Shown here: piece after piece, positions 13,739-58,665 of the stretch
Position numbering within the stretch: position 1 is the stretch's first letter
Layout of the letters: each line of letters opens with the position of its first letter
Assembly (NCBI GenBank): GCA_034231615.1
Contig: CM067298.1
Location: 23,405,934-23,469,933 of the forward strand
Direction: 5' to 3'
From: Meghimatium bilineatum
Lineage: Eukaryota; Mollusca; Gastropoda; Stylommatophora; Philomycidae
DNA: 64,000 nt
Program-made: the position numbers and the translations under genes
The notes under the pieces: model-generated
Database searches by the model: none
The model's input: the letters and a program-made list of their open reading frames with translations, nothing else
Told to the model about the DNA's origin: nothing

Positions 13739-14006
13739 GCCCGTGTGTTGCCGGGAGCAAAGAATAGCAACACTGTTTACCTTCCATGCATGTCATACAA
13801 GGCGACTAAGGAGGTTATGGGATGGAGTTGGCTGTTCCATCCCATATAGGGTCAGTGACCCAAAGCCATGCTGAAGTTGGATGTGTCAGACCGAAAGGCG
13901 CAGATATTGCAGCAATGCTGTAAACCATGACACAACGCATTTCGTTCTCCAGACTACATCCTGCTAATCTGCAGGAGTTTGAGAATGAGCACAGAAGAAG
14001 AAGAAA
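13739..14006 (+). repeat. Family A SINE-like element, full length
   Basis: 268 bp from GCCCGTGTGTTGCCGG to CAGAAGAAGAAGAA. The 7-bp ATGGTTC occurs on both sides (13732-13738 and 14007-14013). Well preserved, therefore younger than most copies here. Confidence 0.85.
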
Positions 14007-19272: not shown

Positions 19273-19540
19273 TCTTCATCTTCGTTCATTCTCAAACTCA
19301 TGTAAATTAGCAGGATGTAGTCTGGAGAATGGAATGAGTTGTGTCATTATTTATAGCTTAGCTGCGATATCTGCGCCTTTTGGCCTGACACATATGACTT
19401 TAGCGTTGATTCTGGGTCACTTCAACACTCTATGGGATGGGACAGCCAACTCCACCCCAAAATCTCCTTTGTTGCCTCTTACAACATGCGTGACAGATAA
19501 CATTGTTGCTATTCTTTGCTTCCATTTGGGAACTGACAAG
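19273..19540 (-). repeat. Family A SINE-like element
   Basis: A near full-length copy. Tail TCTTCATCTTCG, middle TGACACATATGACTTTAG, head GCTTCCATTTGGGAACTG. The terminal head bases are diverged. Confidence 0.8.
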
Positions 19541-20610
19541 ACACATGAAAAACACACGTACACAATTATATTTTAAAATAAAGCCAATTCTCATTTTATT
19601 TTTAAATTGCTCCATTTACCGTCTTTGATGAAGGTTCTCTTTCCTTGAAAATAAATTTAGCTTGTGGTTGGCTTTGCAAAACTATCTTACTTCATGTTTT
19701 TATTTTATCCTTTTGATATCCAGTGTTCCTGCAGTCTACCTTATCATAAGATAAATATGAAACATGTTCTTGAACTTGTCTCAATGTTTAAACATCACAA
19801 CAGGAGTGCAAAAGTAAGCTTTTCATTAAAAACCAACTTAGTCAAAGGTAACTGACACAATGAACAGCTCCTGAGGTTTTCATATACCATTAGTAAGAAT
19901 CATATAACAGGTCACAAAGTATGATCTTTTGATAATATATAGTATTAAGAAGCATTTTAAGAAAAATGATTGAAAAAATCTGAAAGGGCACCAGATTTAA
20001 ACCACTCCATCCAGCTGACACCAAATCATCTCAAAACTTAATCTACGGGTAATACATTTTTCAAAATCAATCATTATCCCTAAAAAATATGATTTTTAGA
20101 AAAAACTTCCATGTGTGTATTCTCAAGACATACCGGTACATGTTTGAGAATATATGTTTGAGTATTCTCAAGAAATACATGTTTGAGAATACACACTATG
20201 GATATCTTGATTAAATTTTACAGCCTTTTTTTTAGGGATGTGGATTGGTTGAATTATGAAAAAATTCTTGGCTAAAGTAGTGAGATTAATTGGTGTTGGC
20301 TGAACAAATCTGTTTCAAATCTCATCTCCTACCTTCTGATTCATTGATTATAAAATCACAGCCAAATTGTCAGGTTTACCAACATTATTGTACACATTAA
20401 AAGCTGAAACACATTAAATTGACTTTCATGCAATAAGCCAAGGATATAAAAAAATCTACAACTGAAATGTAAACAAGCTGTAAATATTGCATAACCACAA
20501 TAAACAATGACAGAACTTGCACCAAAGATGACATTTTGTAACAATTTACTGAACCAATGACTCAAAATAGATTACGTATGTTAACCTCTACAAATACATT
20601 GTATATATGG
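19540..20610. other. No gene recognised; one inverted repeat
   Basis: AT-rich non-coding DNA. A perfect 14-bp inverted repeat GTGTGTATTCTCAA (20114-20127) / TTGAGAATACACAC (20184-20197) encloses further copies of ATTCTCAAGA and TGTTTGAGAATA. Short ORFs here are unsupported. Confidence 0.5.
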
Positions 20611-23067: not shown

Positions 23068-23197
<130 letters not shown>

Positions 23198-30658: not shown

Positions 30659-30897
30659 AATTCCTGCAGATTAGCACGACTTAGTCTAGAGGACAGAATG
30701 TACTGTCTCATGGTTTACAACTTTTCTATCTACAATATCTGCTACCTTTCAGCCTGACATCAAACGTCAACATGGATTATGGGTCACTTTGACCCTATTA
30801 TAGAATGGAATGGCCAACTATTCTCACAACCTCCTTAGTAGCATGGAAGGTAAACATTGTTGCTATTCTTTGCTCCCCTTTCAGGCTCCAGTAACAC
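30659..30897 (-). repeat. Family A SINE-like element
   Basis: Lacks the (GAA)n tail, starting at CTGCAGATTAGCACGACTT. The head is kept to GCTCCAGTAACAC. It abuts the LINE at 29.5-30.65 kb. Confidence 0.75.
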
Positions 30898-31701: not shown

Positions 31702-31707
31702 TTTATT
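31702..31707 (-). terminator. Candidate polyadenylation signal for PTAR1
   Basis: AATAAA on the minus strand (TTTATT on plus) lies about 175 nt past the PTAR1 stop codon. It is the first canonical hexamer I see after the stop. AT-rich sequence makes chance hexamers common, so transcript 3' ends would be needed to confirm it. Confidence 0.45.
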
Positions 31708-31882: not shown

Positions 31883-32120
31883 TTAAAGTGACTGAAGCCA
31901 TCGAATATACTTCTGTAACAATGTTTGCTGGTAGCCATGTGAGGTACATGAGTTTTTCTTTGTCACATTCTCAATCTCACGTGAAATGTAGAATGATTTC
32001 AGAGTTGCCACATCCTTAGGTTGTGCCTGCTCAGACACTGGGACGTGTCCATTGGAAGAATGATTCAGTAGTTTCATCTCAAGATGATCAGACTTTAACA
32101 ATGTCTGAAAAATGAACCGT
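31883..32120 (-). CDS. PTAR1: PTAR1 coding exon 7 (stop codon)
   Basis: The acceptor is gttgcag. The first base, A, completes Arg322, then RFIFQTLLKSDH follows, so the split HRR signature is intact. The rest of the C-terminus is less conserved and ends LLQKYIRWLQSL before TAA at 31883-31885. An AATAAA lies about 175 nt downstream on the same strand. Confidence 0.88.
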
Positions 32121-35100
32121 CTGCAACATAAAATAGATTAGTAAATATCATTTGTTGTATAATGTATATAAATATACATATATCATATATACATAAATGT
32201 AGGCTGTGTAGTGCAGTGGCTTCTGTGGCACACTGGCTTCGCATATGAGTGGTCCTGGGTTCATTACCCAGTTGAGGCGGAAATTTTTTTGAGATCACAA
32301 CGGCTATCTAGTCAACCCAGCCTGAATTGGGTACCAAATGATGGTACCAGAGAGATGGCTGCCGCCCTCATATAGCAGAGCCACTGAAATGTGAGATTGC
32401 TAACATCTCACACCCTACGACAGCTAAATGTTATGTGTTAACTTTACTACTTTGCATACATGTGTGTATATAAACTATGTACTTAATACCATATTCACTC
32501 AAATCTCTCAATCTCATTGTGATATTTTATGTATTATCAGAATACAACATCTATAATGTCTATATTGGTTTCACAATGATATTCATAAATGAGGCTCTTA
32601 CTAAAGGTGTTTTAAATGTCTATCTTGTGTCTTGTGTTTAGAGCTGGATATTTTATGTTGTTTATTTTGCTTGTGCTAGTCTCATATGACTGTTGTTACT
32701 TGTAGTAATGACTTGTATTTGGTTCTACACATTGCTCCCAGGTTATCAACAATATGATAGGGAGTATTTGTTTTTACTTTTCTATAACAATCTGTAATTT
32801 CCAAGGAGGAGAGCTTTACTTAGGGGGAGAGGTTTAACATTTTTTTTGCATTTATTTTGTTTCTATATTTTAATAAGTATCAATTTGTAGTTACTTCTAA
32901 AGACCTCCAGGGCTCTGTGAGCATGCAGTATTAGCTAAATCCATAGTATGCTTTCATAACTACAGCTGTAACTAGCTTTACCACAGTGTGAGTAGCCTTA
33001 CCACAGACTTTAGTGACTTTACTACAGCTGTAAGCAACTTTATTATATTGTAAGCATCCTTGCCACATCTGTAATTCTTACAGCTGACGGGAATTGAACC
33101 AGGTCTGTTCTAGCAGCACCGAATCGCTTTGCAACACAAGTAAACAGGTTTTCCGTACTTGACCAACCACATCCCCAAAAAAAGATGTGGCGTGGTCAAG
33201 ACTTTCAGCCTGTATACTCAAGTCACTGAGAACAGACCAATTGAAACAAGGACTATTACAACATTAACGAACATCCCGTACAAGTATTAAAGTATCCTCA
33301 GGAACACAAACACAGAACATGCATATAAAGGCCTTCTTGTAAACATAAATAACATAGAGACATAATGTTGCTTCAAATAATATCTTATACAAATAAATTC
33401 AAGTAGGAAGCATGAGGATAAATGAAAATAATTCTTACAGCTGACGGGAATTGAAAGTGGTTTTACTACAGCTGTCAATAGTATTTTTGTATTGTAAGTA
33501 GTCTTATCACGTAGGTAGATTTATCATAATTTAAGTAGTTTTACCACAGCTTAAGTAGCTTTGCCAAGGCTATAAACAATAGTACAACAGTTATAGGTAG
33601 CAATGCCATAGCTGTAAGACTTACCACAGCTGAGCTATCAATAAATTTACCATAACTGCAAGCAAACTTACCAAACCTGTTAGCAGCCTTACCACAACTG
33701 CAGGTAGCATTACCATAAATGCATGTATTGCCACAGCTCTAACCAGTATTGCCACAGCTTTAACCAGTAATACTATAGATGCAACAAACATTATTACAGC
33801 TGGCATCAGACTTACCACAGCTACAAAGAAGAAAAGCTGTAGGTCAGTGCATGAAAGTAGTATATTGCTTCCAGTAATAAGGATCCTGAACTACATTATT
33901 ACCCTTCACATAAAGCAGCTAACAGGTGTGGTAAGGTTGCTTTCAGTTATGGTAAAGCCAAAAAAAAAGACTACCAATCACACGACCAAGAAATGTATTC
34001 AAATACTAACCTGTGATACCAGAGTGTCTCATGGCCTGGAAATGAATATATGAGATCGCAGATGAGTGACATTTCAAGCATTAGCAGTTCTGTAAAATTC
34101 TGCATACATGTTGAAGCAAAATCGACTTGCTGACTGTGTAATTGAGAAAGAAGAAACTGTCGATAGTGAAAGCCACTGAAGTCAGAAATGTGTTGGGATG
34201 TCCATGACTCTGTCCCCTTCAACTCTGAGAGTATAGCCTGTTACAAGTGTAGAAATAAACCAGTGTGTTTTCTTTCATAGATATTCTGTAATACTTATAA
34301 ATACAAAATTAGGGGCAAATTGTTATGGGTGGTGGTCATGGTTATAAACACTACAAGTGTAATAAATAAATATAAAAGAAACAGGTGTGATAAATTAGCA
34401 AAATACAACAAATTATTCATCCAATGTAGTATCATCCTCTAATAACACTTTGCGCACCAGAAATCCAGAACGTACTTGTCCGCCATTACCGAGGGTGTAC
34501 GCAATATTTTATACATTGACATCGCCGTCTTTAAAAATTTGTATAAATTCAATCTAGTGCAAGAAAGCCTTGAAACTTTTAGTATTTCAAGAAAAAAATC
34601 CTTGAAACGGAAAGTGTTAAAACTGATTTCACAACTACATCTTTGTCCTTATTCAATTGTGCACCAAAGGATATGTTATAATCAGTTTATCATCTCATTC
34701 ATTTCGGCATAATCTAAACATGACTGGGGTAGTAGATCCATACATATTCTTGAAGGGCAGAGGTGTCTATGTATACCTTCCATTCATGGCCCAGCCATCA
34801 ACTTTGAACTTTGAGAAGCATGAACTGAGAGACGAAGACAATAATTTTAGCATGTTTTCAAGAGCAATTGTATGACGGCTGTTCAATAAGTTCCCTGACA
34901 TACTTTTTTTCAAGAAACTCATAATATGTAAAGCAAACCAGGTGCATGCAATCACCATGTGCCAATTTATGGAAGTATGTAACTTTGTGCATGTCCTGTG
35001 TGGGATCCTTTAAGAGTGACCTAGTTTGTATCATAAAATTCCCAAAATGTAAACCTTCAACAACGTATATATTAATTTCAGCTTATGGCTTGGAAAAACT

Positions 35101-38100
35101 AATTCTGAACCAATTCATACTGCAGTCAGTTTTTGGAGAGTCCTGTCTAAGTAGATCTACAACATTTGAGTGGTATTTTCAATACTTAGAAGAACAATAC
35201 TTAGAGAAAGTAAAACAACCAATATTCATACTATTCAAGAACTGCACAGAATAGCTTTGAACAGACAGAATTGGAGAGATCTGACCTCTGCCCTATGCGC
35301 TAAATTCAGCGCAAAAGGAAAATGAATAAATGAATGAATAAACATACTATTTTTAAAAATTAGAAAATCCAAACAAATGAATTACCTCCACAGAGCAGTT
35401 CAGACAATGCTGCATGACCCAGATCCTGTGAGACCAGGCATGATAATTACAAGCATACTTTTCTGCTGCCCTAGCACACAATTTCAGCTCACTCTGCGTG
35501 TGTGATTTCAATAACCTACTGGACTCTAATGCAAGTGCTCCATTCTCACACACACCAGTTTCTGCAAATGCACTGATATCAACTTCAATGGTGTCCATAT
35601 TCAACAAGCTGTTGTCACTGGCTGTCGCTGCAGCTGAACATGAGGAGTTACTTGCAGAACTTGATGACAGACAGTTGTGTAGGAGCTGTCGAAAAAGCCA
35701 TCGCCTGCAAGAAGACTAAAGCAACTCATAAACACTTCAAAATACTCCTGTTGTATAAAATATATAAATATTTACATAAATTGAATATACAATATAAATT
35801 TATATTTCTTAAAAGTTCACTCTAACCTAACCAATCATATTTTTTGTGTGATTTGAGTTCCTTCAGCACAAGAACATTCTCTTGCTAATTCATAACATGG
35901 GTGCCATATGTCATATTTGTTGTTAAATTGTGGGGCTCATGCCATGCTGGCAGCTAAATTCTTTGACCCATGTCATATTTGATGTTAAATTCTTTGACCC
36001 ATGTCATATTTAATGTTAAATTCTTTGACCCATGTCATATTTGATGTTAAATTCTTTGACCCATGTCATATTTGATGTTAAATTCTTTGACCCATGTCAT
36101 ATTTGATGTTAAATTCTTTGACCCATGTCATATTTGATGTTAAATTCTTTGACCCATGTCAGACTATCTGCTAAATTCTTTGATGCTCATGTCATGTTTT
36201 CTGTTAAATTGTACAAGTGAAATCTTCTTCAATGTTACAGTGCCTCCTGGGTATTTGCTCTTTGGTCCAATGTGTGCTGTGATATCTGCAAGTGTTTGTC
36301 AGTTGTTGCTTTGTTCCATATAGTGTGTTACATTTGTCTGGTCTTGGAGAAAGGAGACATTTTCTTTCTACCTGAGGTTATCAAAGATCAAACACAGAAG
36401 AAGAAGATAACTTCAGCTCTGTTTAGATAATTCCCGGTACAGGATTTTGTCTTTTGTGTATCAGTGTTACTACAACTTTTTCTAGCATATCTGCCTTTTC
36501 ACTGCCTGGTATGTCACAGTTGAATGGGCTTCTAATCTACCCAGCCTGAGGAAATTAGTAGCAGGTCTATTGGAAAGTACAGAATGATGGTGTGATGCTG
36601 ATCATATCATCCTTAGGTATGCTGGTGGTCAATGAGAATTATGGTCTTATTCCCCAATTTGCATGAAAAGTGTGGAAAAGGGAACATTACTTCATATTAC
36701 TTTTCATATTAATTATGGAAACATATTTTTAACAATGCTTATGTAAAGATATCTGAACATTATTACAAAAACTGAATGTATTTTTAATTGATCTTAAATG
36801 ACTTATCTCTAAGAGACAGTAAGGGCCACATTCATTAATGTGTGTGTATGTCAACCTATCATTACCTGTGAACATAAGTTTCTGAACTGTTTGGATGCTT
36901 CGACAAAACAAGTGCTCCAAACAACAAATCTTCAGACAGACTAAGGTATCCATGTTCTATTAATTCCTTCCTGGAACAAAAAAAGCTGCAATTACATTTA
37001 GATTTTACACTATATTTAATTTTGTTATTTTTTGTCAATATTTTTACCTTTTATCTTTACAAATTTATTATATCTTAAGTTACATTTATTTTGTTGCTGG
37101 AGCACTTCTTCTTCTTCTTCTGCGTTCGTTCTCAAACTCCTGCAGATTAACAGGATGTAGTCCGGAGAACGGAATGCGTTGTGTCATGGTTTACAGCATT
37201 GCTGCGATATCTGCGCCTTTCAGCCTGACACATCCGACTTCAGCATGACTTTGGGTCACTGACGCTATATGGGATGGGACAGCCAACTCCATCCCATAAC
37301 CTCCTTAGTCGTCTTTTACGACATGCGTGAACAGTAAACAGTGTTGCTATTCTTTGCTCCCCTTTCGGGCCCCGGCAACACACGGACGCTGGAGCACTAG
37401 ATAGCAAGAGTATGGTGGTATGCAGGGGTCGATTGGAGGGTCCAGTGAATTTGGAAGAAAAAAATTAATCTGAAACTCACATGCATTATTGTAATATAGA
37501 AGAGGCAATAGCAACACGAATATAACATTATCTGGAGGCCCACTTGAATATTTGTTAGGTGTTATAGAGCTCTAGTCCACCCTTGGTAGTGCACTAGATT
37601 AAATCATACATGTGTAGAGGTTAAAATTATGTTATGGTCAATCCAAGTATATTGTGCCATAGTATCTTCCACCATTGAATCTTGGACAGTCCATTGTAGA
37701 CGTACCAGAAAATTAAATCACTTCCTGCTTACAAGAGCTCTCCTGTGATTGCTCACAATCAAGTGGAAAAAAAACACTACATCAAAACCAGCACAAGAAC
37801 TAAATTCAAGTATTCACTTGCTACTGCAAAAAAACCCAAGTGAGGTGTGCCGAACAGATTATAAGAAAGTCAAAATAAATGATGTATGGCAAGCTCACAA
37901 AGGACCAGAAAATGAAATAAATGCTTCATAATATTTCTTAAAAGCATCTCTAAAGATTTCAACATTGAAATCTACTTCTAGGGAAACCCATGCACAGGAC
38001 CACCAAACATGCTGCATTAACATGGATAGATTTAGATTTGTCAAAGAATGCTATATTGTTGAGAAACTAAAGAACTGTGTTGCTCAATTAGACAGAACTA

Positions 38101-41100
38101 TGTTTTCTTCTTCTTTCGTTCACTTGGAATATGTTTAAATCTGAATTTCTTCTTCTTCTGCATTTGCTCTCAAACTCTTGCAATTAAAAGAATGTAGTCC
38201 CAAGAATGGAATGTGTTGTGTCATGGTTTACAACAGCATTGCTGTGATATCTGTGCCTTTCACCCTGACACGTCTGACTTCAGCATGACTTATGGACACT
38301 TTGACCCTATATGAGGTGTGACAGCCAACTCCACACCTTACTTCCTTGGTTTTCTCTTACAACATGTATGGAAGATAAACAGTGTTGCTATTCTTAGCTC
38401 CCCTTTCGGACCCGGCAATACACTGGTGAAAAATCTGAATTTGTACTTCCGACAAATATTTTTTCATTTTGAGACATTTTGATTACTGTGATGTGCCTCT
38501 TTGCTTGTTGCCTCCAACTTCAGTACCTCTAATTGATAAGACAAACTTCGGTCTTGCTCCATGTAGGAGAGCCTGATCAGACTTAATTTTCAACCAGGTG
38601 GCCTACTTAAGCCCCACCTGACTACAATTACCAAATTATGCCTACTTGTAAACATAAATTACACATCAACATAAACAAGGTTGCTTCAAATATGATATAG
38701 GTAAATGAATAATATAAGTTGAGGATTTATTAATAAAGAAAAATCATAATGCAGCAAATGGAATTTGAACCAGGTCTGCTCAGATGACGCCCACTTGCCT
38801 GGCAACTTCAGTCAACATGTTTTCCATCATCTTCCATCTTAAACACCACATCTCTCAATGTAGTACTACGGCCTTCTGGCACATACTAATATTAAATGTT
38901 TGTAGTTCTTGAGGAATTTACATACCTGTGCAGTGTGTGTTTTGTTCTTTGTGTGTAGATTGATCGGTCCATACTCACAGTAGCTTGAGAATGTACCCGT
39001 TGGAAGTCGTGACTAAAATTGCAATATTTTATAAGGATGCTGTGTGGCCAAAGACAGAAAACAGATTGGCTCAAGTTGCAAGGTGAGTGGGTGCCATCTG
39101 GGCGGACCAGGTTCAAATCCTGTTTGTTGCATTATGATTTTTCTTTATGAATAAATCCACTAAAGTTGCATTATACAAAAGATTATTATTATCCCATCAC
39201 TGTGCTACCAGTGTCAAACCTGGACAATGACAGTACAAGACAAAGAAAAAATAGTGACAGCAGAAATGACATGTTTACGAAGAATGCTCAAAGTGTCATT
39301 AAGAGATAGAATTAGAAATTATAACATCAGACAGATAATCAAAACAATACCAGTATTGGAACACATCAAGCGACAACAGATCAAGTGATTTTCACTCACT
39401 TCTAGAATACCAACAGACATCATGCCACTGTTGGCCATAACACATAGACATAACAGCTATAAAGCCAGAGGCAGATCATGTAAAAGAGGGATCACATAAA
39501 TCAAAGAGGCAATGGGAACAAGCTTACAAACAGCACACAATAAGGCCATCTTCAGAGAACTCTTCTACCTCTGAAGCTGCAAGGCAAACAAGGGCAACAG
39601 CATAAAGATAGATAGATAGATAGAATAAATACTTGATTCTTCTATATTATATATTTCTTTATCTTGATACAAAGTAGATAAAAAATGTGTAATTATGCAA
39701 GAACATATCCAGGAGTAAATATTAACTCACTTCATATTTGTGTAGTAATAGATTTCAAATAATTCATTACACAGTTTAGTTGTCTAGACAAAATCATATT
39801 TATACAAGAGAAATGTTAGGAGTATTACCTAATATTCCATGCTGTATAGACTTCTGGACTAAACAAAAGCACAGCTCGGCTCAGATGGCAAACCTCAAGA
39901 GGATCTGTTAAAAAATGTTATTTAAATGATTACAGTATTCAACATCCAGGTTCTTAGACATGTTAAATAATCAACTTGTAATGAGGGCAAAGTTCACAGT
40001 CTTGAGCAGGTATAGAAGATTTTTCATGATCATCAGGTATTATCTCCACATTAAAGTTTGGCTGCAATGAATGCTTAACATTCTCTGTCTCTTGATTGTA
40101 TGGTACACTTTGACAAATTATAATTTGTCATTTCTGGATGTTTTCTTCCTATTTATATCTTTGTCTACTATTTGTTCTGATATTAATTCATTTTGTTTGA
40201 ATATATGCAAGTGTGTTATTTGTGCCTTTAGGGGAGCAAAAAATAGCAACACTGTAACTTACTGGTGCATGTTATAAGATGTGATTAAGAAGGTTTGGAG
40301 GAAGAGTTGGCTGTCCTATTTCATAAGTAAAATGCCATGCTGCAGTTGGATGCATCAAGCCAAATTGTGCAGATATCATAGTTAAGCTTTTATGGATGAC
40401 ACAATGCATAATGTTCTTTAGACTACATCCTTCTAACCATCAGAGTTCTAGTATGAATACAGAAAAGTTTGAATCTAATTTCCTGCCATAGGTGGATGCT
40501 TCGGGCCATTGTGATTTCACAACTCACATTCGGCAAATATGAGTTCCCAGCGGTTGAGTTCACAGCAGCTGAAGTATTTCAGACTGTTGTGTAAGACTTT
40601 GTCATCATTAAAATACATGGGATTTAACATTTTCACTGCCACTGACTACTTTTGTCAGTAAAATTCAACATCCTTGTCACTGCCATGGAAGAATTTTGTC
40701 AATGAAATAGTCACTTTCACTGCCATGGTCTACTTTTGTCAGCGAAATTCTTCTTCTTCAGTGTTCATTCTCAAACTTCTGCTGGATCTCTTTTGTAGCA
40801 GGACCATGGTCCTACTAGATTTCCAGTAGGATGTAGTCCAGAGAATGGAAATGCATTGTGTCACCATTTTATTTGCGCCAATGGCCTGACACATCCGTCT
40901 TCAGCGGAAGTGAAATTCAACATCCCTTTCACTGCCATGGATGACTTATGTCAGTGAAACACAGTCACTTTCATGCTACTGAAGACTTGCCGTCTGCGAG
41001 TATGACTTTTTCAGGGGAATTTTGCTGACTCTACAATGGTATTATTTAGTGCTGGACTTCTCATTTATTACAAATGTCATTCCAAAATAGAGAAGCCAGT

Positions 41101-44100
41101 TATTAGATCAATTAAATGCTGATAATTGGAGATTTTATGATTTTATTTCATTTTTTCAATGAAAATTTTAAAATGAATAATGTAGCTGGTGATACATGGT
41201 CTATAGTGACTCTTATTTGAACTTTTTAGCAAGTAATAATGATGAAACAGACTTAAAATCAGATACAGAACTGGACTATGATTCAAGTAATTGCTGGCCA
41301 TATAAAATAGTTCTACAGGTCCAGTAGCGAGTGACAGACACCCACTTCAAAACAGTAGTGTGACACTGCCATTGCTAGACAAAATCATTCATAAAATAAA
41401 TGGAAATGAAAAATATTCTATAAAATTTTGAGACAAATGTTTTTGGAAAGCATATTCTTCTCTGAATGTCTTCTGAAAGTTTCAAAACCATAACGATATT
41501 AGTTGATTTTTTTAATGATTTATTAAAATTATCATACTCATCATAGCAATGCAGTGGGAGACACTTGGATTAAAAAGACAAGTCAGTGAAAGTGCCGAAT
41601 GTTTATGCATATATGTTCATCCTTCACTACACTTTCACTACAACCACTTAATCTATTACGTTCTTTTTCGTAAATCTAAAATTACCAGTTAATTGTTCTC
41701 CTGGAATATGACTTCGCCATCCATTAAGTCTCTGTGCTGAATATCTCACAAGTATTTTCACAGCCCATGATTCTATCCCAAGTTTGTGATCTTGTAGAAT
41801 GAATGGAGATCTGTTGTGTTTAGGTTCCAGCTCTGGCAATATATCATATTCATCTCTGAAAGATCAGTAACACAAATAACATTATCATCAATAAACACAA
41901 TGCTTTGACAGAATTCAACATACTTTCTAACAGGTAAGATATGCCTATACCTGTTTCATTGTTTGTAATAGTTACAAATAAGCTTTCATTATTTTTATAC
42001 TGGTCTATGAATAACTTTTAAATATTTCATTCTGCATGTTCTTTAGAATGTTCCACGCAAAGTAATACATGGAGAATTTTGTCTGTACCATGTGGTTTGG
42101 TTATTGAGAGAAAACCATGTTATATGTTGTTCGTCCATCACAAGTGATGATAACCATTTGTATGATAACCATTTGTTACATCCACCTTTGAAGTTCAGTT
42201 AGAGATATGTCCTTGCCTATGAGTTTGTAGATGATTGATAAGCCCTCTTCGAGCTGCAAATGTCCTTCGACAGTCCAGGCATGGAATGACCACAGTAGAC
42301 AGTTTTTGGCCTATCTGTGACTTTTTAGCTACTCTCCGCTGTTGAGTTGCTAAATTTTTCCTCTTTTCACATGATTATGCACCTTTTTTATCGAAGTGTG
42401 CCATGTAGATCTATTTTGTGCAAGTTCTTCTCATGTATCCTAGTCTAATTCAAAGGCTTTTAGTGAGGTCTTTAACAAGTCCTTGCGCTTCTTTTGGCTA
42501 CCTTGAGATTGTATACTCTTCTCCAGCTCACTATAGAGAAAAATGCAAATAAGGTAAATAGGTTACTAGAAAACTGTCAATATAAAATAATAAAATATAG
42601 AAAATAACAATAAAACAAAGAACAAATACAATTGTCAGCATGTCGGTCCAATTGGAACCTTTATCAAGACAACAAAAACAATGTTCTTAATCATCTAGTT
42701 TGGTCTACCTATGATGGCCTGTTTCCATCTCTTTTCCATAGATACATTGACGATGGGATAGGTATCACTGACATGTCCGAAGTGGAATTGTCTCGTTTCA
42801 TTAATTTCATTGGCAGTTTCAACCCTGCTATTCAATTTACATCTAATATCTCCACTACTTCTGTCAACTTCCTTGACATCATTGTCACCATTCATCCCCC
42901 TTACCTTATCACATCCGTTTACTATAAACCCACTGATGCACATGGCTTTCTGCTCTACATTTCTTCTCATCCTCCTGCTTGTCGTAACTCTCTACCGTAC
43001 TCCCAGCTTCTTCGCCTGCGTCGCTTATGTAGCGATTACGACGATTTTCTCAACAAGTCCTCTGAGATGATTGAGTTTTTCCGTAGACAATCGTTCCCTG
43101 ACAGCATTCTTTCATCCGCTTGGCTCCGTGTGTGCCATTTGTCTCGCCTCGATACCTTACTAACTCTCAGGGTACTTCCTCCTCCTCTGATAGGGCTAAA
43201 CTTGTTCTTACCTTTCATCCCCATAACTCTTCTGTTCGACGCATCATGCTTAAACATTATTCTCTTCTCCAGTCTGATCCTGACACCCATGACGCTTTCC
43301 CTGACTTACCTCTGGTGGCTTATAGGCGTGATAGAAATCTGAAGGACATCTTGGTCCATAGCCACCTGAAGTCTTCTGTTCCCGACCATTTTGGCACTGT
43401 CCGTTGCTCACGTGCCCGTTGCTATACATGTCCTTGCGTAGTTCAGATGCGCTCCATTTCATTTCCCAAGGCCACTTTTTCAATCGATAATGCCTTTACA
43501 TGTGAATCCTGTAATGTCATTTACATGATCATATGTAAACGCTGTGGCAAACAGTACATCGGAGAAACATGCCTACGATTGAGCAATCGTTTTTGTAACC
43601 ATCTTTATGCTATCAAGCACAGAACACCCACTCCTGTGGCCACACACTTCAACGGCGATGGTCATCATGGTGCTTTTGATATTCAGGTCACCGTCATCAG
43701 ATCTTGCACCGCTGATGATAGATCTAGGTACGCTCTAGAAAATAATCTCATTTTTGAATTGGGTACACTCAAGCCTTTTGGACTCAATTCCGACCACTCT
43801 TATGTCTAGTACTGGGTTGGTGTGGTCTTTGTCTTTATTCTTTTTGTTCCATCATTTACTCATCTTTTTGTTTGTTTCGTTTCCACATATATATGTTTTT
43901 TATGTACTTTCTGACCTTCCGGCATCTCATTTCCAGATTTCCGTTTGTCTGTTGTTATAATTTTTCAATTCGTCGTCTTTTGATGTTTTGTTTGTGTCTT
44001 GATAAAGATCTTTTGGTTGAAACATTGAATATGATTTGTGTATTGTAATTTGTATGATTTCTTGTGTGCACATCATTACCTACTAGTTTTAGTTATAGTC

Positions 44101-45517
44101 TGTCGTGTCTCATTAAGGGAAATATAAACCTGTGTTTTACATAAGTCTAACCCACAGGAAAAGAAATACATGTAACTATTCACATCAAGACTGGAATGAT
44201 AGGATCTGTTTTATTGCCTCAGAGATAGTATTTCTAATTCACTATTGAGAGAATGACATCAATGGTGTCTGTGTAAGATATTCCAAGAAAATTAAAGAGA
44301 CAATACAGCAAGCTTCAATATATTCAACTCCACAAAGGCACAAAGTTATAAAATAAAGACTACTAATGTTTTCACTTGTACAAGAGGGATCAAGTACTCT
44401 ATGCATGTAGTTGAGTATACCTGTACCATACTTATATACATTCTTTTATAAGTTCTAGGTTAGTTATGTGGATAAATTATTGACTGAATCTATTTAAACG
44501 TATTATATGAGATAACATTTATGATTGTGATGAATTTAAATGATTTATAAAAATTTCATATTTTTTAAGAAAACAGCAATATGAGTAGATGGTTTATTTA
44601 CTGGATATGATTTAGAATGTGTTTAAGAAATAAATAAGATTATTGTTAATAAATAGTAAAATGGCTGTGAGTAGAAATTTTTTATTCATGGAATTAGACC
44701 ATTGATGATATTGCTGGGAAGATAATGGTAACAGTTATCTGATCTATCATATGATCGAGATTGACATTTTACACTTAACATTGTCTTCAGACTTCAAGTG
44801 AGATAGGCTGGGCAGGAAGATCAATTAAAATTGGAGACATTTAATTGTCCATTTGTCAAAATTTGTGAACTGAGCACACAGCAATAGAGTGAATGACAAA
44901 TATTGTCCTTGATTACTAGTATAATGAATAGCAAAAATACACTGCTTCATTCTCCACCTTGTCCCTTGTTGAGGATATCCTGATTTACTGAATATCCTCG
45001 GACAGTCACTCATGACACTCACTGACAGTTATTTAATATTATGGCCTATTCTTTATTTATAGTATTTAGACTAATTTAGTTTAGGCCTCTGACGTGGAAA
45101 GGGATTCATGATGATCGGAGAAGTCTATCACGCAGTTCACTGAAGCTCTTTATGATGTAAACTTATGAACTAGTTGAACAATGGCGAATACGTTTGGTTG
45201 TGAATTAAACTGTCGTTTGATGTCAACACTCTACAGTCTACTAGTCTCCTGCCTGATTGGAGTTCCGAATTACTTTAATTTAAACAAATAAATACTAAAA
45301 TTAGTGATTCAAGTTCAAGTTGACAGTCGACATTGAGTATCATACTTGCAAGGCGCATGTTTAGGGCCAACTCGTTATCCGTATGTTCCTTAATGAAACA
45401 AAAACAAAACAAGTTGAGGATTTTGTTTTTAAATTTAAAGACAACTCACATATTAGGGTCTCTCTTGAAAGCATTATCTAAGTCTGCTAGCAACCGAGAA
45501 CCTCGCACATCGGCCAT
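31883..45517 (-). CDS. PTAR1: PTAR1 orthologue, complete 7-exon gene
   Basis: This is a spliced gene for a 400-aa prenyltransferase alpha-subunit-repeat protein. Coding exons in order are 45450-45517, 41686-41855, 39829-39904, 36866-36970, 35386-35704, 34011-34237 and 31883-32120. They total 1203 nt, every intron is GT-AG, and phases join cleanly (2, 1, 2, 2, 0, 2). Five PPTA-type repeats are visible: YTAWNIR (res. 99-105), TYVHRRWLF (136-144), NYHAWSHRIW (226-235), SGFHYRQFLL (267-276) and GHETLWYHRRF (314-324). The N-terminus has NIDEYDILPE followed by NRSPF and KLGIESW, as remembered for vertebrate PTAR1. A Ser/Ala-rich insert (about 153-172) looks lineage-specific. From the family: PTAR1 is an FNTA-like alpha subunit that pairs with RABGGTB in geranylgeranyltransferase III, which lipidates YKT6 and FBXL2; it should be cytosolic, and no signal peptide or membrane segment is seen. 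The exon structure is read from the sequence; the function is inferred from homology. No internal stop or frameshift is seen. Confidence 0.93.
32200..32420 (+). repeat. tRNA-derived SINE in PTAR1 intron 6
   Basis: The head has AGTGCAGTGGCTTCTGTGGC (A-box region) and GGTCCTGGGTTCATTACCC (B box). The body has AGTCAACCCAGCCTGAATTG and CAGAGCCACTGAAATGTGAG. It is the best-preserved tRNA-SINE in the window. Confidence 0.7.
33000..33850. repeat. Irregular minisatellite in PTAR1 intron 6
   Basis: Variants of a 20-22 bp word (TTACCACAGCTGTAAGTAGC) recur from 33000-33070 and 33456-33850, many containing CAGCTG. A non-satellite block of about 360 bp interrupts it at 33095-33430. The hydrophobic Val/Ala ORF on the minus strand (33621-33818) is a translation of the repeat. 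Confidence 0.8.
33073..33455 (-). repeat. Family C tRNA-SINE, interrupting the minisatellite
   Basis: The minus strand has GCAGACCTGGTTCAAATTCC-like head sequence (AACAGACCTGGTTCAATTCC at 33090-33110). The body (33330-33450) shares TTGAAGCAACATTATG and ATGTTTACAAG with 38540-38830. The 26-bp AATTCTTACAGCTGACGGG plus AATTGAA occurs at both edges (about 33070 and 33431). Confidence 0.55.
34011..34237 (-). CDS. PTAR1: PTAR1 coding exon 6
   Basis: The acceptor is taacag and the donor gttagt. It starts in phase 0 with AILSELKG, continues TSQHISDFSGFHYRQFLL (alpha repeat 4), and ends with PGHETLWYH plus the first two bases of Arg322 (alpha repeat 5). The matched vertebrate blocks HVSDHSGFHYRQFLL and SYPGHETLWCHRR make the assignment very firm. 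Confidence 0.94.
34238..35385. other. PTAR1 intron 5, no recognised element
   Basis: A 1148-nt GT-AG intron. The ORFs in it (for example 34476-34712, 34946-35254) show no recognisable protein. Confidence 0.6.
35386..35704 (-). CDS. PTAR1: PTAR1 coding exon 5
   Basis: This is the largest exon (319 nt), with acceptor cttgcag and donor gtaatt. It starts with RWLFRQLL, finishing alpha repeat 2, then a Ser/Ala-rich low-complexity linker (residues about 153-172). It ends with the hallmark NYHAWSHRIW repeat (226-235). The linker between repeats 2 and 3 is also where vertebrate PTAR1 is most variable, so the insert is not alarming. Confidence 0.92.
35890..36214. repeat. 31-bp satellite in PTAR1 intron 4
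   Basis: Six nearly identical units of 31 bp (ATGTCATATTTGATGTTAAA + TTCTTTGACCC) run from 35970 to 36155. They differ at one position, and 2-4 diverged units lie at each edge. The gradient from perfect centre to worn edges fits unequal crossing-over. Confidence 0.95.
36238..36420 (-). mobile_element. LINE tail fragment in PTAR1 intron 4
   Basis: 36238-36375 matches the minus-strand LINE tail at 49490-49630 (CTTTGTTCCATATAGTGTGT; LYGTKQQLTNT in translation). The final CACAGAAGAAGAAGAT (about 36400) points the other way and may be a family A/B or LINE tail stub. Confidence 0.55.
36866..36970 (-). CDS. PTAR1: PTAR1 coding exon 4
   Basis: The acceptor is ttccag and the donor gtaatg. It encodes KELIEHGYLSLSEDLLFGA followed by LVLSKHPNSSETYVH and ends AG, completing Arg140 with exon 5. 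This covers the start of the second alpha repeat. The frame that gives a longer uninterrupted ORF over this stretch is a shadow. Confidence 0.9.
37107..37387 (-). repeat. Family A SINE-like element, full length (PTAR1 intron 3)
   Basis: 281 bp with an exact 11-bp duplication GCTGGAGCACT (37096-37106, 37388-37398). On the minus strand it runs from GTCCGTGTGTTGCCGGGGCC to ACGCAGAAGAAGAAGAAGA. It is the reference copy for family A ends. Confidence 0.93.
37400..38105. other. PTAR1 intron 3, no recognised element
   Basis: A 60-codon plus-strand frame (37749-37931) is not recognisable. The rest is ordinary AT-rich intron. Confidence 0.5.
38106..38148 (-). mobile_element. I-like LINE 3' end stub
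   Basis: TCTTCTTTCGTTCACTTGGA then ATATGTTTAAATCTGAATT matches the 3' end of the LINE at 29018. It served as target for the family A insertion that follows. Confidence 0.6.
38149..38430 (-). repeat. Family A SINE-like element, full length (PTAR1 intron 3)
   Basis: 282 bp flanked by an exact 12-bp duplication AAATCTGAATTT (38137-38148, 38431-38442). It is inserted at the 3' end of an older LINE stub in the same orientation. More diverged than the 37107 copy. Confidence 0.92.
38538..38830 (-). repeat. Family C tRNA-SINE (PTAR1 intron 3)
   Basis: The minus-strand head has GCCAGGCAAGTGGGCGTCAT and CAGACCTGGTTCAAATTCC (B box). The body includes TTGCTGCATTATGATTTTTC, TTGAAGCAACCTTGTTTATG and CTCTCCTACATGGAGCAAGA. 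Inverted relative to the copy at 39050-39170. Confidence 0.65.
39050..39170 (+). repeat. Family C tRNA-SINE, head (PTAR1 intron 3)
   Basis: TTGGCTCAAGTTGCAAGGTG (A box), then GACCAGGTTCAAATCCTGTT (B box), then TTGCATTATGATTTTTCTTT. It faces the family C copy at 38538-38830 across about 220 bp. Confidence 0.65.
39190..39625 (+). mobile_element. LINE C-terminal fragment with (GATA)n tail
   Basis: The translation LCYQCQTWTMTVQDKEK, TCLRRMLKVSLRDRIRNY, EHIKRQQIKW and HRHNSYKARGRSCKR is an RTE/CR1-like post-RT region. The 3' end is GATAGATAGATAGATAGA, like the insertion at 9744-10039. Inside PTAR1 intron 3, antisense to the gene. Confidence 0.7.
39829..39904 (-). CDS. PTAR1: PTAR1 coding exon 3
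   Basis: This short exon (76 nt) has acceptor aacag and donor gtaata. It encodes PLEVCHLSRAVLLFSPEVY then TAWNI, the first alpha-repeat with its Trp-Asn-x-Arg signature. It is too short to stand out as an ORF. It was placed by phase (1 to 2) and by the match to the LLLNPDFTTAWNVR region remembered for vertebrate PTAR1. Confidence 0.9.
40229..40467 (+). repeat. Family A SINE-like element (PTAR1 intron 2)
   Basis: GGGGAGCAAAAAATAGCAAC starts it. The middle (GCCATGCTGCAGTTGGATGC) and end (TACAGAAAAG) are recognisable but well diverged. An old copy. Confidence 0.75.
40630..41010. repeat. Minisatellite in PTAR1 intron 2, split by family B
   Basis: Units of about 50-60 bp built from CACTGCCATGG, TACTTTTGTCAGTGAAA and TTCAACATCC. 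Three to four units are recognisable at 40630-40749 and 40908-41000; B interrupts them. Confidence 0.7.
40750..40907 (-). repeat. Family B SINE-like element, near full length
   Basis: TTCTTCTTCAGTGTTCATTC to ACACATCCGTCTTCAGCGG. The flanks share GYGAAATTC, which could be either the duplication or the host minisatellite. Clean copy. Confidence 0.85.
41686..41855 (-). CDS. PTAR1: PTAR1 coding exon 2
   Basis: The acceptor is tttcag and the donor gtaatt. The exon encodes residues 23-80, including ELEPKHNRSPFILQ and the conserved HKLGIESWAVKILV. It ends in one base, G, which joins AT of exon 3 to make Asp80. This is the N-terminal conserved block specific to PTAR1 within the alpha-subunit superfamily. 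Confidence 0.92.
42110..42545 (-). mobile_element. LINE C-terminal tail (PTAR1 intron 1)
   Basis: The minus strand (SELEKSIQSQGSQKKR, LLKTSLKAFELD, HSMPGLSKDICSSKRA) matches 46260-46700 piece by piece. A C-terminal C…H zinc-finger-like end is recognisable. Same strand as PTAR1. Confidence 0.65.
42546..42682 (-). mobile_element. Penelope-like terminal repeat in inverted position
   Basis: GGTAAATAGGTTACTAGAAA and GTCGGTCCAATTGGAACCTT match the arms of the inverted repeat at 51943-52320. It is fused directly to the coding part of the element starting near 42683 and points away from it. Inverted partial terminal repeats at the truncation point are typical of this class. Confidence 0.55.
42683..44140 (+). 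mobile_element. Penelope-like element: RT end and GIY-YIG endonuclease
   Basis: The RT C-terminal half carries the catalytic YIDDGIGI (about 42750) and NFLDIIVTIHPPYLITSVYY. Then comes a linker with DHFGTVRCSRARCYTCPC, then the GIY-YIG domain: CNVIYMIICKRCGKQYIGET, LSNRF, HLYAIKHRTPTPVATHFNG and LENNLIFELG. The RT N-terminus is missing and the element is broken (about one break in the coding part). The 3' region ends with TTGATAAAGATCTTTTGGTT and GAAACATTGA. It is the best Penelope-like copy here; 55646-56185 is its sister. Sense is opposite to PTAR1, whose intron 1 holds it. Confidence 0.88.
44150..45449. other. PTAR1 intron 1, 5' part, no recognised element
   Basis: AT-rich intron sequence without recognised repeats or coding motifs. 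Confidence 0.5.
45450..45517 (-). CDS. PTAR1: PTAR1 coding exon 1 (start codon)
   Basis: The exon opens with ATG at 45515-45517 and encodes MADVRGSRLL then ADLDNAFKRDPN (residues 1-22). It ends with AT before a consensus gtgagt donor. The split codon AT|A gives Ile23, which restores the NIDE motif with exon 2. This ATG was chosen because the reading matches the usual PTAR1 N-terminus in length and sequence (…NPHIDE in the vertebrate protein as remembered). A non-coding 5' exon further upstream cannot be excluded. Confidence 0.88.
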
Positions 45518-51539: not shown

Positions 51540-52755
51540 TTACACTAGCAATAAACTAAATGAAAATACCAGAGAGCTACTCTTTGCCGACGATCAGGCT
51601 ATAATAGCAAATGAAGAAACTGAACTTCAACGTCATCTAACATCCATGGACATCGAGTACAAGAACAACAACATGAACATATGCATAGATAAAACAGAAA
51701 CCATGGCAATATGAAGGGATGCACACAATCTAAATATATTAGTGGAAAATCAAGTCATTAAACAAACCAACACCTTCAAATACTTAGGCGTAACATTCTC
51801 TTCAGATGGAAAGATGGACACCGAAATAGACATTCGTTGTAGCAAAGCGAATCAAATACTGGGTCAATTATCCCCTTTAATGCAACACAAACTGTTACCA
51901 ATGTCAAAAAAACCCCATCTTATCCAAAGTATCTTAATTCCAGGTAAATGCAAATAAAGTAAATAGGTTACTATATCAATATAAAATAATAAAATATAGA
52001 AAATAGCAATAAATAAAAGGAACAAATACAATAGTCAACGTGTCGGTCCAATTGGGACCTTTAAAGACAACAAAAACAGTTAAGAACAAAAAACCATAAC
52101 GAATATAAACAACATTCAAACAATATAAACAAAGGTCCCAATTGGACCGACACGTTGACTATTGTATTTGTTCCTTTTATTTATTGTTATTTTCTATATT
52201 TTATTATTTTATATTGATATAGTAACATATTTACTTTATTTGCATTCACCTCTATTTGTATGGTTACTGCGGCACTTCCTTTTTGTCGGTCATCCTCCGA
52301 TATTTGGGTTATTTATATTTATCTTCATTCCAACCCTGTGCTACCAATGTCAAACACGGTCCTTAACAACAAAACATAAGAGACAACTGGTTACACCAGA
52401 GATGAGATGTCTGAGAAAAGCCACAGGAGTGACCAGAAGACACAGAATTAGAAACGATGTCATAAGAGAAAGAGTGGGTGTCATATCAATTCTACAATAC
52501 ATACAAAACCAACAGATTTGGTTTGGTCATCTGGAAAGAATGCCGTACGATTCATTAGTTTATAAAGCATATATTAAGAGAGGAGAAGCAGAAAGAATAG
52601 CCAAGGGTAGACCTAGAGTACGCTGGATCAAAAACATTAAAGAGACATTACACGAACATCAAATAACATTACATGAAGCCAGAAAAGCGAGAACAAGAAC
52701 ATTGTATCTCCCTCGACACCCGTAAAGGGTAAAAGAAGAAGGAAAGAAGAAGAAG
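51540..52755 (+). mobile_element. RTE-like LINE, RT to 3' end, split by Penelope repeat
   Basis: RT segment ELLFADDQAIIANEETELQR, DIEYKNNNMNICIDKTETMA and TNTFKYLGVTFSSDGKMD, up to HLIQSILIP (51942). It resumes at 52321 with FIPTLCYQCQT, TPEMRCLRKATGVTRRHRIR, QNQQIWFGHLERM, GRPRVRWIKNIKE. It ends at the RTE-style CTCGACACCCGTAAAGGGT then AAAAGAAGAAGG. The interruption is flanked by ATCTTMATTCCA on both sides. Confidence 0.8.
51943..52320. mobile_element. Penelope-type inverted repeat without coding part
   Basis: 378 bp: left arm 51948-52065 (TCAACGTGTCGGTCCAATTG) and right arm 52131-52250 (CAATTGGACCGACACGTTGA) face each other across about 65 bp. The outer right end (GTCGGTCATCCTCCGATATT then TGGGTTATTTAT) is shared with 59.7, 61.7 and 9.6 kb. 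Flanked by a 12-bp near-exact duplication, it interrupts an RTE-like LINE. Confidence 0.8.
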
Positions 52756-53621: not shown

Positions 53622-53878
53622 TTCTGAATCAAACTTATGCAGATTAGCAAAATGTTGTGCGGATAATGGAATGCATTGTGCCATTGGTTATAGCTTTGTT
53701 GTGATATCTTCGAATTTCAGCCTGACATATTTGATTTCAGAATGACTTCTGGGTCACTTAGACCCTATATGAAATGAGACAGTCAACTCCTCCCAAAAAT
53801 CACATTTTTACGACATGCATCGAAGATCAACAGTGTTGCTTTTCTTTGCTCCCATTTCCGAGTTCTAGCAACACACAG
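53622..53878 (-). repeat. Family A SINE-like element
   Basis: Near full length with a worn tail. Head TTCTAGCAACACACAGG. A possible short duplication AGGAAT(C/G)T lies on either side. Confidence 0.8.
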
Positions 53879-55645: not shown

Positions 55646-56185
55646 TTACATGCCATCAAGCACAGAACACCTACTCCTGTGGCCACACACTTCAACGGCG
55701 ATATTAATCATGGTGCTCTTGATATTCAGGTCACGGCCATCAGATCCTGCACCACTGATGATAGATCTAGGTACTCTCTAGAAAATTGTCATATTTTTTA
55801 CTTGGGTACCTTCAAGCCTTTTGGACTCAATTCCGACCACTCTTTTGTCTAGTAATGGGTTGGTGTGGCCTTTGTCTTTATTCATTTTGTTCCGTCATTT
55901 ACATCATCTTTTTGTTCGTTTCGTTTCCACATATATTTGCGTTTTTATGTACTTCCTGTAATTCCGGCATCTCATTTCCATATTTCCGTTGGATAATTTT
56001 GTGTGTTGTGATAATTTCTATTCGTCGTCTTTTGATGTTTTGTGCGTATCTTGATAAAGACTTTTTGGTTAAAACGTTGATTATGTTTTGTGTATTGTAA
56101 TTTGTATGTTTTCTTGTGTTCGCATCATTACCAACTAGTTTTAGGGATAGTCCGTCGTTTCTGAGTGAAACTATTATAAAAACCT
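55646..56185 (+). mobile_element. Penelope-like element, 3' copy
   Basis: Aligns closely with 43600-44140, from CATCAAGCACAGAACACC through GGCCACACACTTCAACGGCG to the 3' terminal hairpin (TTGATAAAGACTTTTTGGTT). It keeps only the end of the endonuclease and the 3' region. Broken and 5'-truncated. Confidence 0.85.
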
Positions 56186-57985: not shown

Positions 57986-58397
57986 TATTAACATGTATGT
58001 AACCAAGGATTACAAAAACTATCACTCTGTTTCCTAGTTTTGCGTATAATATTGAGACTTTTTTATTGAAAATTTGAAGATCAAATTTTGAATCCAGGCC
58101 ACAATACGACGGAAATATTCTGTCACATGATTAGTATTGCTGTTCGGTTTCCGGTGCCACCTCCAAAATCTAGATAGTCTGCGGGTGTACATCAATTACT
58201 TGCTGTAGACGGTAACATTGTTGGTCACTGTATCATCATATATTCAATATTGCATTACTTGATTTGTGATTATAATGTCCGATGTTGGATTTATTTGCAA
58301 TATCAAAACTGCACTCTTTCGACTATTATTGAATAATTGTTAATTAAATAAGTAGTGTTTCAAAGGAGTATATTTATATATTATATTATATTTTCGC

Positions 58398-58665
58398 CCT
58401 TGTGTTGCAGTGGCCCGAAAGGGGAGCAAAGAATAGAAACACTGTTTACCTTCCATGCATGTCGTAAAAGGAGACTAAGGAGGTTATGGGATGGAGTTGG
58501 CTTTCCCATCCCATAATAGGGTCTGTGACCCAAAGCCATGCTGAAGTCAGATGTGTCAGGCCGAAATGCACAGATTTCGCAGCAATGCTGTAAACCATGA
58601 CACAACACATTCCGTTCTCCAGACTACATCCTGCTAATCTGCAGAACGAACGCAGAAGAAACTAG
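58398..58665 (+). repeat. Family A SINE-like element, near intact
   Basis: Starts CCTTGTGTTGCAGTGGCCCG and ends CGAACGCAGAAGAAACTAG, with about 18 bp missing before the tail. The flanks share TATTTTYGC (58389-58397, 58666-58674). A young copy. Confidence 0.88.

Follow-up and report, generated by a model that had tools for sequence, protein, structure and literature searches.

The protein PTAR1 combines with the beta subunit RABGGTB to form geranylgeranyltransferase type III (GGTase-III), which, as described in the parts of PMC9141697 and PMC12001115 that deal with the enzyme, geranylgeranylates the SNARE Ykt6 at the cysteine next to the CaaX cysteine. FBXL2 has also been reported as a GGTase-III substrate (PMC9141697); the relevant passage of PMC12001115 calls Ykt6 the sole substrate and describes PTAR1 homologues as widely conserved among eukaryotes. 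Drosophila Tempura, a protein of 398 amino acids, is a homologue of vertebrate PTAR1, and human PTAR1 cDNA rescues the sensory-organ defects in Drosophila tempura mutant clones, according to the portions of PMC3904817 concerned with the two proteins. Our literature search on PTAR1 in molluscs found nothing.

The stretch of DNA analyzed here, 64,000 nt of the Meghimatium bilineatum genome (the window), carries a gene on the minus strand whose coding sequence spans positions 31883-45517 and whose seven exons join into 1203 nt, that is, 400 codons and the stop TAA, with zero internal stops. We consider it about 95% probable that this is a PTAR1 gene, present at one locus of the assembly, and that its product most likely pairs with RABGGTB as the alpha subunit of GGTase-III. 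An earlier interpretation of the same DNA (the sequence-only reading) had given the exon count, exon sizes of 68-319 nt, GT-AG borders, total length, codon number and stop codon, all of which were reproduced base for base. All six introns run from GT to AG and are 1148-3594 nt long, and every junction except 5/6, which is in phase 0, interrupts a codon. The assertion that each split codon restores a family motif is slightly too strong: it holds for three of these five junctions, namely NIDE at junction 1/2, HRRW at 4/5 and HRRF at 6/7, while junction 3/4 yields NIRKEL, with the human counterpart NVRKEL, and junction 2/3 yields LTDPLE, for which no motif was matched.

The joined product contains five stretches recognized by the Pfam model PPTA (PF01239; E 3.6e-29, 99 bits against a cut-off of 29.5), which agrees with the five alpha repeats counted previously. 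These repeats are common to FNTA, RABGGTA and the window protein, and both of the former align with it, at 26.8 and 55.8 bits, respectively; the gene might thus be read as a divergent FNTA or RABGGTA, which we regard as extremely improbable because these matches are far weaker than the match to PTAR1. Among solved structures compared with phmmer, the best relative is human PTAR1 (PDB 6J6X, 6J74, 6O60), whose 226.5 bits (E 4.6e-66) are four times the RABGGTA score. The likeness consists of three colinear stretches in which 126 of 256 aligned residues are identical and 174 are positive. It includes the N-terminal region, where a 114.8-bit alignment pairs residues 7-151 with 18-159 of chain 6o60_A and where the window protein has the motifs NRSP and NIDE, the latter in place of the human HIDE.

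The host assembly (1.61 Gb in 32 contigs) was searched for further relatives. Besides a single match in the window, the PPTA model gave two on contig C2 and two on contig C11, five in all; the C2 pair belongs to FNTA (61 and 87 bits) and the C11 pair to RABGGTA (66 and 88 bits). The objection that the best hit might be FNTA or another alpha subunit is excluded by score, and also because clear FNTA and RABGGTA exons show these to be separate genes in the same genome. The identity as PTAR1 proposed by the sequence-only reading is likewise supported by score, with PTAR1 first by a wide margin, and the gene appears to be an ordinary animal PTAR1 orthologue from a family that is already well known. 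Beyond the host, three stretches in a collection of viral contigs fitted a pattern and none encodes a relative. In a collection of genome contigs one locus of six pattern matches, in a Clostridia MAG and corresponding to query residues 78-110, was considered a chance match since it lies inside an open reading frame (ORF) that by eye resembles a ParA/MinD-type ATPase.

As a control for chance similarity, the three human PTAR1 segments taken from the phmmer alignment were searched by tblastn in the window and in 20 dinucleotide-shuffled versions of it. The five HSPs in exons 2, 4, 5 and 6 score 36.6-51.6 bits, compared to 25.8 bits for the best of the 20 shuffles. Exon 1 (45450..45517, 68 nt, 23.5 bits) is not above the shuffles individually; it provides the ATG, amino acids 1-22 and 2 nt of the next codon, with the alignment to human PTAR1 starting at residue 7, and its start codon lies in the favourable context AACAATATGG, with A at -3 and G at +4. 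Intron 1 (41856..45449, 3594 nt) carries an antisense fragment of a Penelope-like element and is followed by exon 2 (41686..41855, 170 nt, 47.4 bits). Exon 3 (39829..39904, 76 nt), at 24.6 bits, is also not above the shuffles on its own, and is colinear in the phmmer alignment and contains the PPTA-type motif YTAWNIR. Exon 4 (36866..36970, 105 nt) scores 40.0 bits. Exon 5 (35386..35704, 319 nt, 51.6 bits) encodes the PPTA repeat YHAWSHR and a Ser/Ala-rich stretch at amino acids 152-207, and matches PPTA by itself (E 2.8e-9), as does exon 6 (34011..34237, 227 nt), which has two PPTA stretches (E 8e-11) and HSPs of 51.6 and 36.6 bits. Exon 7 (31883..32120, 238 nt), with the TAA at 31883-31885, has no tblastn HSP with the three human segments and no Pfam match when searched alone; its HRRFIF resembles human HRRHIF. 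Exons 1, 3 and 7 are accordingly carried by colinearity, splice sites, the open frame and the joined alignment. A polyadenylation-type hexamer AATAAA, a motif only, is located at 31702..31707 on the same strand, 176 nt downstream of the stop.

Two segments of this model differ from the human protein. Human PTAR1 has 21 amino acids between the same aligned segments where the window protein has its 56-residue Ser/Ala-rich stretch, and phmmer leaves the C-terminus from about residue 328 onwards unaligned to human PTAR1; for the 70-odd residues of exon 7 past HRRFIF, phmmer, Pfam and tblastn found no homology. The Ser/Ala-rich stretch and the greater part of exon 7 are supported by their open frame and position, not by homology, so that the description of the gene as complete, although likely to be right, is unproven at these two places. 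The gene could be real and its exon model slightly wrong, with part of the Ser/Ala stretch spliced out or exon 7 ending differently and a product not exactly 400 amino acids long. In-frame GT-AG pairs of 60-153 nt, e.g., one of 90 nt, do occur inside the exon 5 insert, and the excess over the human length speaks in the same direction; however, the other introns of the gene are 1148-3594 nt long, and the Ser/Ala-rich stretch has no stop and runs on without a break into the following PPTA repeat. We consider such an error unlikely, with a small but real chance of being correct.

Retroelement fragments abound at the locus, as might suit a pseudogene, i.e., a dead PTAR1 copy amid repeats. By blastn at E 1e-5, matches to other parts of the window cover 24% of its length and 26% of the gene span, and 0 exon bases lie in such DNA. 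None of the seven exons contains a premature stop, their borders are GT-AG, and the start and stop codons are intact; the introns are retained, hence the gene is not a processed copy. Nor was another copy found in the 1.61 Gb assembly, where match counts are lower bounds: the PTAR1 protein had at least eight matches (18 candidates were scored), seven of them its own exons and one, at E 4.2, on contig C22. We therefore give a pseudogene very little probability. The PTAR1 gene could be read correctly in full from raw sequence across 13.6 kb of repeat-filled DNA.

We infer expression, heterodimer formation, catalysis and substrate of the product. The product would be a helical-repeat prenyltransferase alpha subunit that most likely pairs with RABGGTB, the product of another locus in this genome, to give geranylgeranyltransferase type III. 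Ykt6 would be held by the N-terminal region of PTAR1 and two later loops, and as a consequence the beta subunit could add geranylgeranyl to the first of the two C-terminal cysteines of Ykt6. Nine human PTAR1 residues are named at Ykt6 sites in the structural part of PMC9141697; in the window protein three of these are identical, four are conservatively replaced and two are changed. In 6j6x numbering E31, P36 and N43 are identical, I35 and V48 conservative, and V50 changed, with human V50 and M229 both replaced by Gln. With seven of nine positive, compared to 174 of 256 overall, the contact residues do not appear clearly better conserved than the whole protein, so their conservation is compatible with Ykt6 binding and does not constitute independent evidence for it. 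With respect to the human FBXL2-docking residues N43, W81, R84 and D85, N43 is kept and the others align to L, P and L near a 3-residue gap, which makes the register at W81, R84 and D85 uncertain.

The range of substrates may be wider than Ykt6, since Tempura acts on Rab1 and Rab11 as reported in the portion of PMC3904817 that describes its substrates. Tempura differs from the window protein in that it is reported there to have a single PPTA motif, compared to five PPTA stretches in the window protein.

Exons for the partners were sought in the same assembly. A search for the Prenyltrans domain gave 19 matches in three clusters, and one exon was tested per cluster. These are a RABGGTB exon at C24:6224487-6224726 (140.8 bits to the beta subunit of GGTase-II/III), a PGGT1B exon at C1:135.07 Mb and an FNTB exon at C25:61.07 Mb. 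The Longin search gave eight matches, four of which were viewed as ORFs, and the one tested, at C2:73.81 Mb, is a YKT6 exon. Downstream of it on the same strand is an exon whose final residues, FYKT, are followed by GTAAGT, and the last exon, AKKTNQCCVIL followed by a stop, comes after TTTCAG near 73.794 Mb on the minus strand of C2. Two cysteines, three residues and a stop were sought on the minus strand of the two stretches examined, and among the three occurrences only CCVIL has both a plausible acceptor in front of it and the expected exon upstream. The YKT6 model is partial, the exons between the first-found and the last being located only in part. This genome thus appears to encode the alpha and beta halves of GGTase-III together with a Ykt6 that has tandem cysteines. 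The two cysteines discriminate little, because they are conserved across eukaryotes, including species where no PTAR1 was found, as stated in the corresponding part of PMC12001115. Two very similar longin-domain exons at C10:2.49 Mb and C24:7.94 Mb resemble SEC22, as we presume, and may point to two SEC22-like loci.

The finding adds an animal genome in which the three alpha and the three beta prenyltransferase subunits are each represented by exons. By itself it changes little, given the wide conservation of PTAR1 homologues that PMC12001115 describes.

The one mild lead is the C-terminus of Ykt6 in this genome, CCVIL, with which the lipid attached first may be a different one. Proteins that end in leucine are, as a rule, modified by GGTase-I in preference to farnesyltransferase, and the Ykt6 of mammals and yeast carries one farnesyl and one geranylgeranyl group in its modified form. 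The human protein ends CCAIM (in the part of PMC9141697 that gives its sequence) and that of budding yeast CCIIM (likewise in PMC12001115). In vitro, GGTase-I modifies FBXL2, another protein with a CVIL end, according to the section of PMC9141697 that treats it. Based on the terminal leucine and the FBXL2 precedent, we tentatively suggest, as a possibility that has the odds somewhat against it, that Ykt6 could be geranylgeranylated first by GGTase-I and then by PTAR1-RABGGTB, which would result in doubly geranylgeranylated Ykt6.

The sequence-only reading called PTAR1 the only provable host gene. This is borne out within the 24 of 62 ORFs of at least 90 amino acids that were scanned with Pfam, where no second host gene was found; the remaining 38 ORFs, one of which is exon 5, and shorter exons lie outside that scan. 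Above the curated cut-offs the 24 ORFs contain only retroelement domains (RNase H, reverse transcriptase and endonuclease), and 10 of them have Pfam matches only below cut-off. Matches below cut-off include zf-RVT, GIY-YIG and one more RNase H, and the retroelement domains are scattered on both strands. Neither ARAGORN with the bacterial code nor Rfam at gathering scores reported anything in the whole window, the former having been used for tRNAs.

The antisense element in intron 1 lies at 42600..44130 on the plus strand, outside the gene product, and comprises the frames 42614-43342 and 43102-43809. The latter covers the GIY-YIG region (E 3.9e-4; 21.1 bits, just under the curated 22.6); the former has no Pfam match and includes what we take, by eye, to be the reverse transcriptase-type motif YIDDG, and the name Penelope-like is likewise a tentative assignment. 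A second partial copy at 55650-56162 is 87% identical over the part common to 42600-44130. An inverted repeat with 121-nt arms, 51942-52062 and 52131-52251, which are 98% complementary and 68 nt apart, resembles in part the first 81 nt of the same element.

An element some 290 nt long is dispersed through the window in both orientations, at 37105-37395, 13753-14005, 58395-58660, 38147-38423, 19273-19544, 1655-1900, 53629-53876, 1283-1543, 30659-30897 and other places, the longer ones sharing 67-92% identity with the copy used as query; it is possibly a SINE or another short non-autonomous element. The segment 32198-32420 in intron 6, which is single-copy in the window, resembles by eye the head of a tRNA-derived SINE, including the B-box-like GGTTCATTACCC. 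Simple repeats include a perfect run of 62 copies of TA at 23070-23193 and, in intron 4 of the PTAR1 gene, about 10 tandem copies of a 31-nt unit at 35908-36210.
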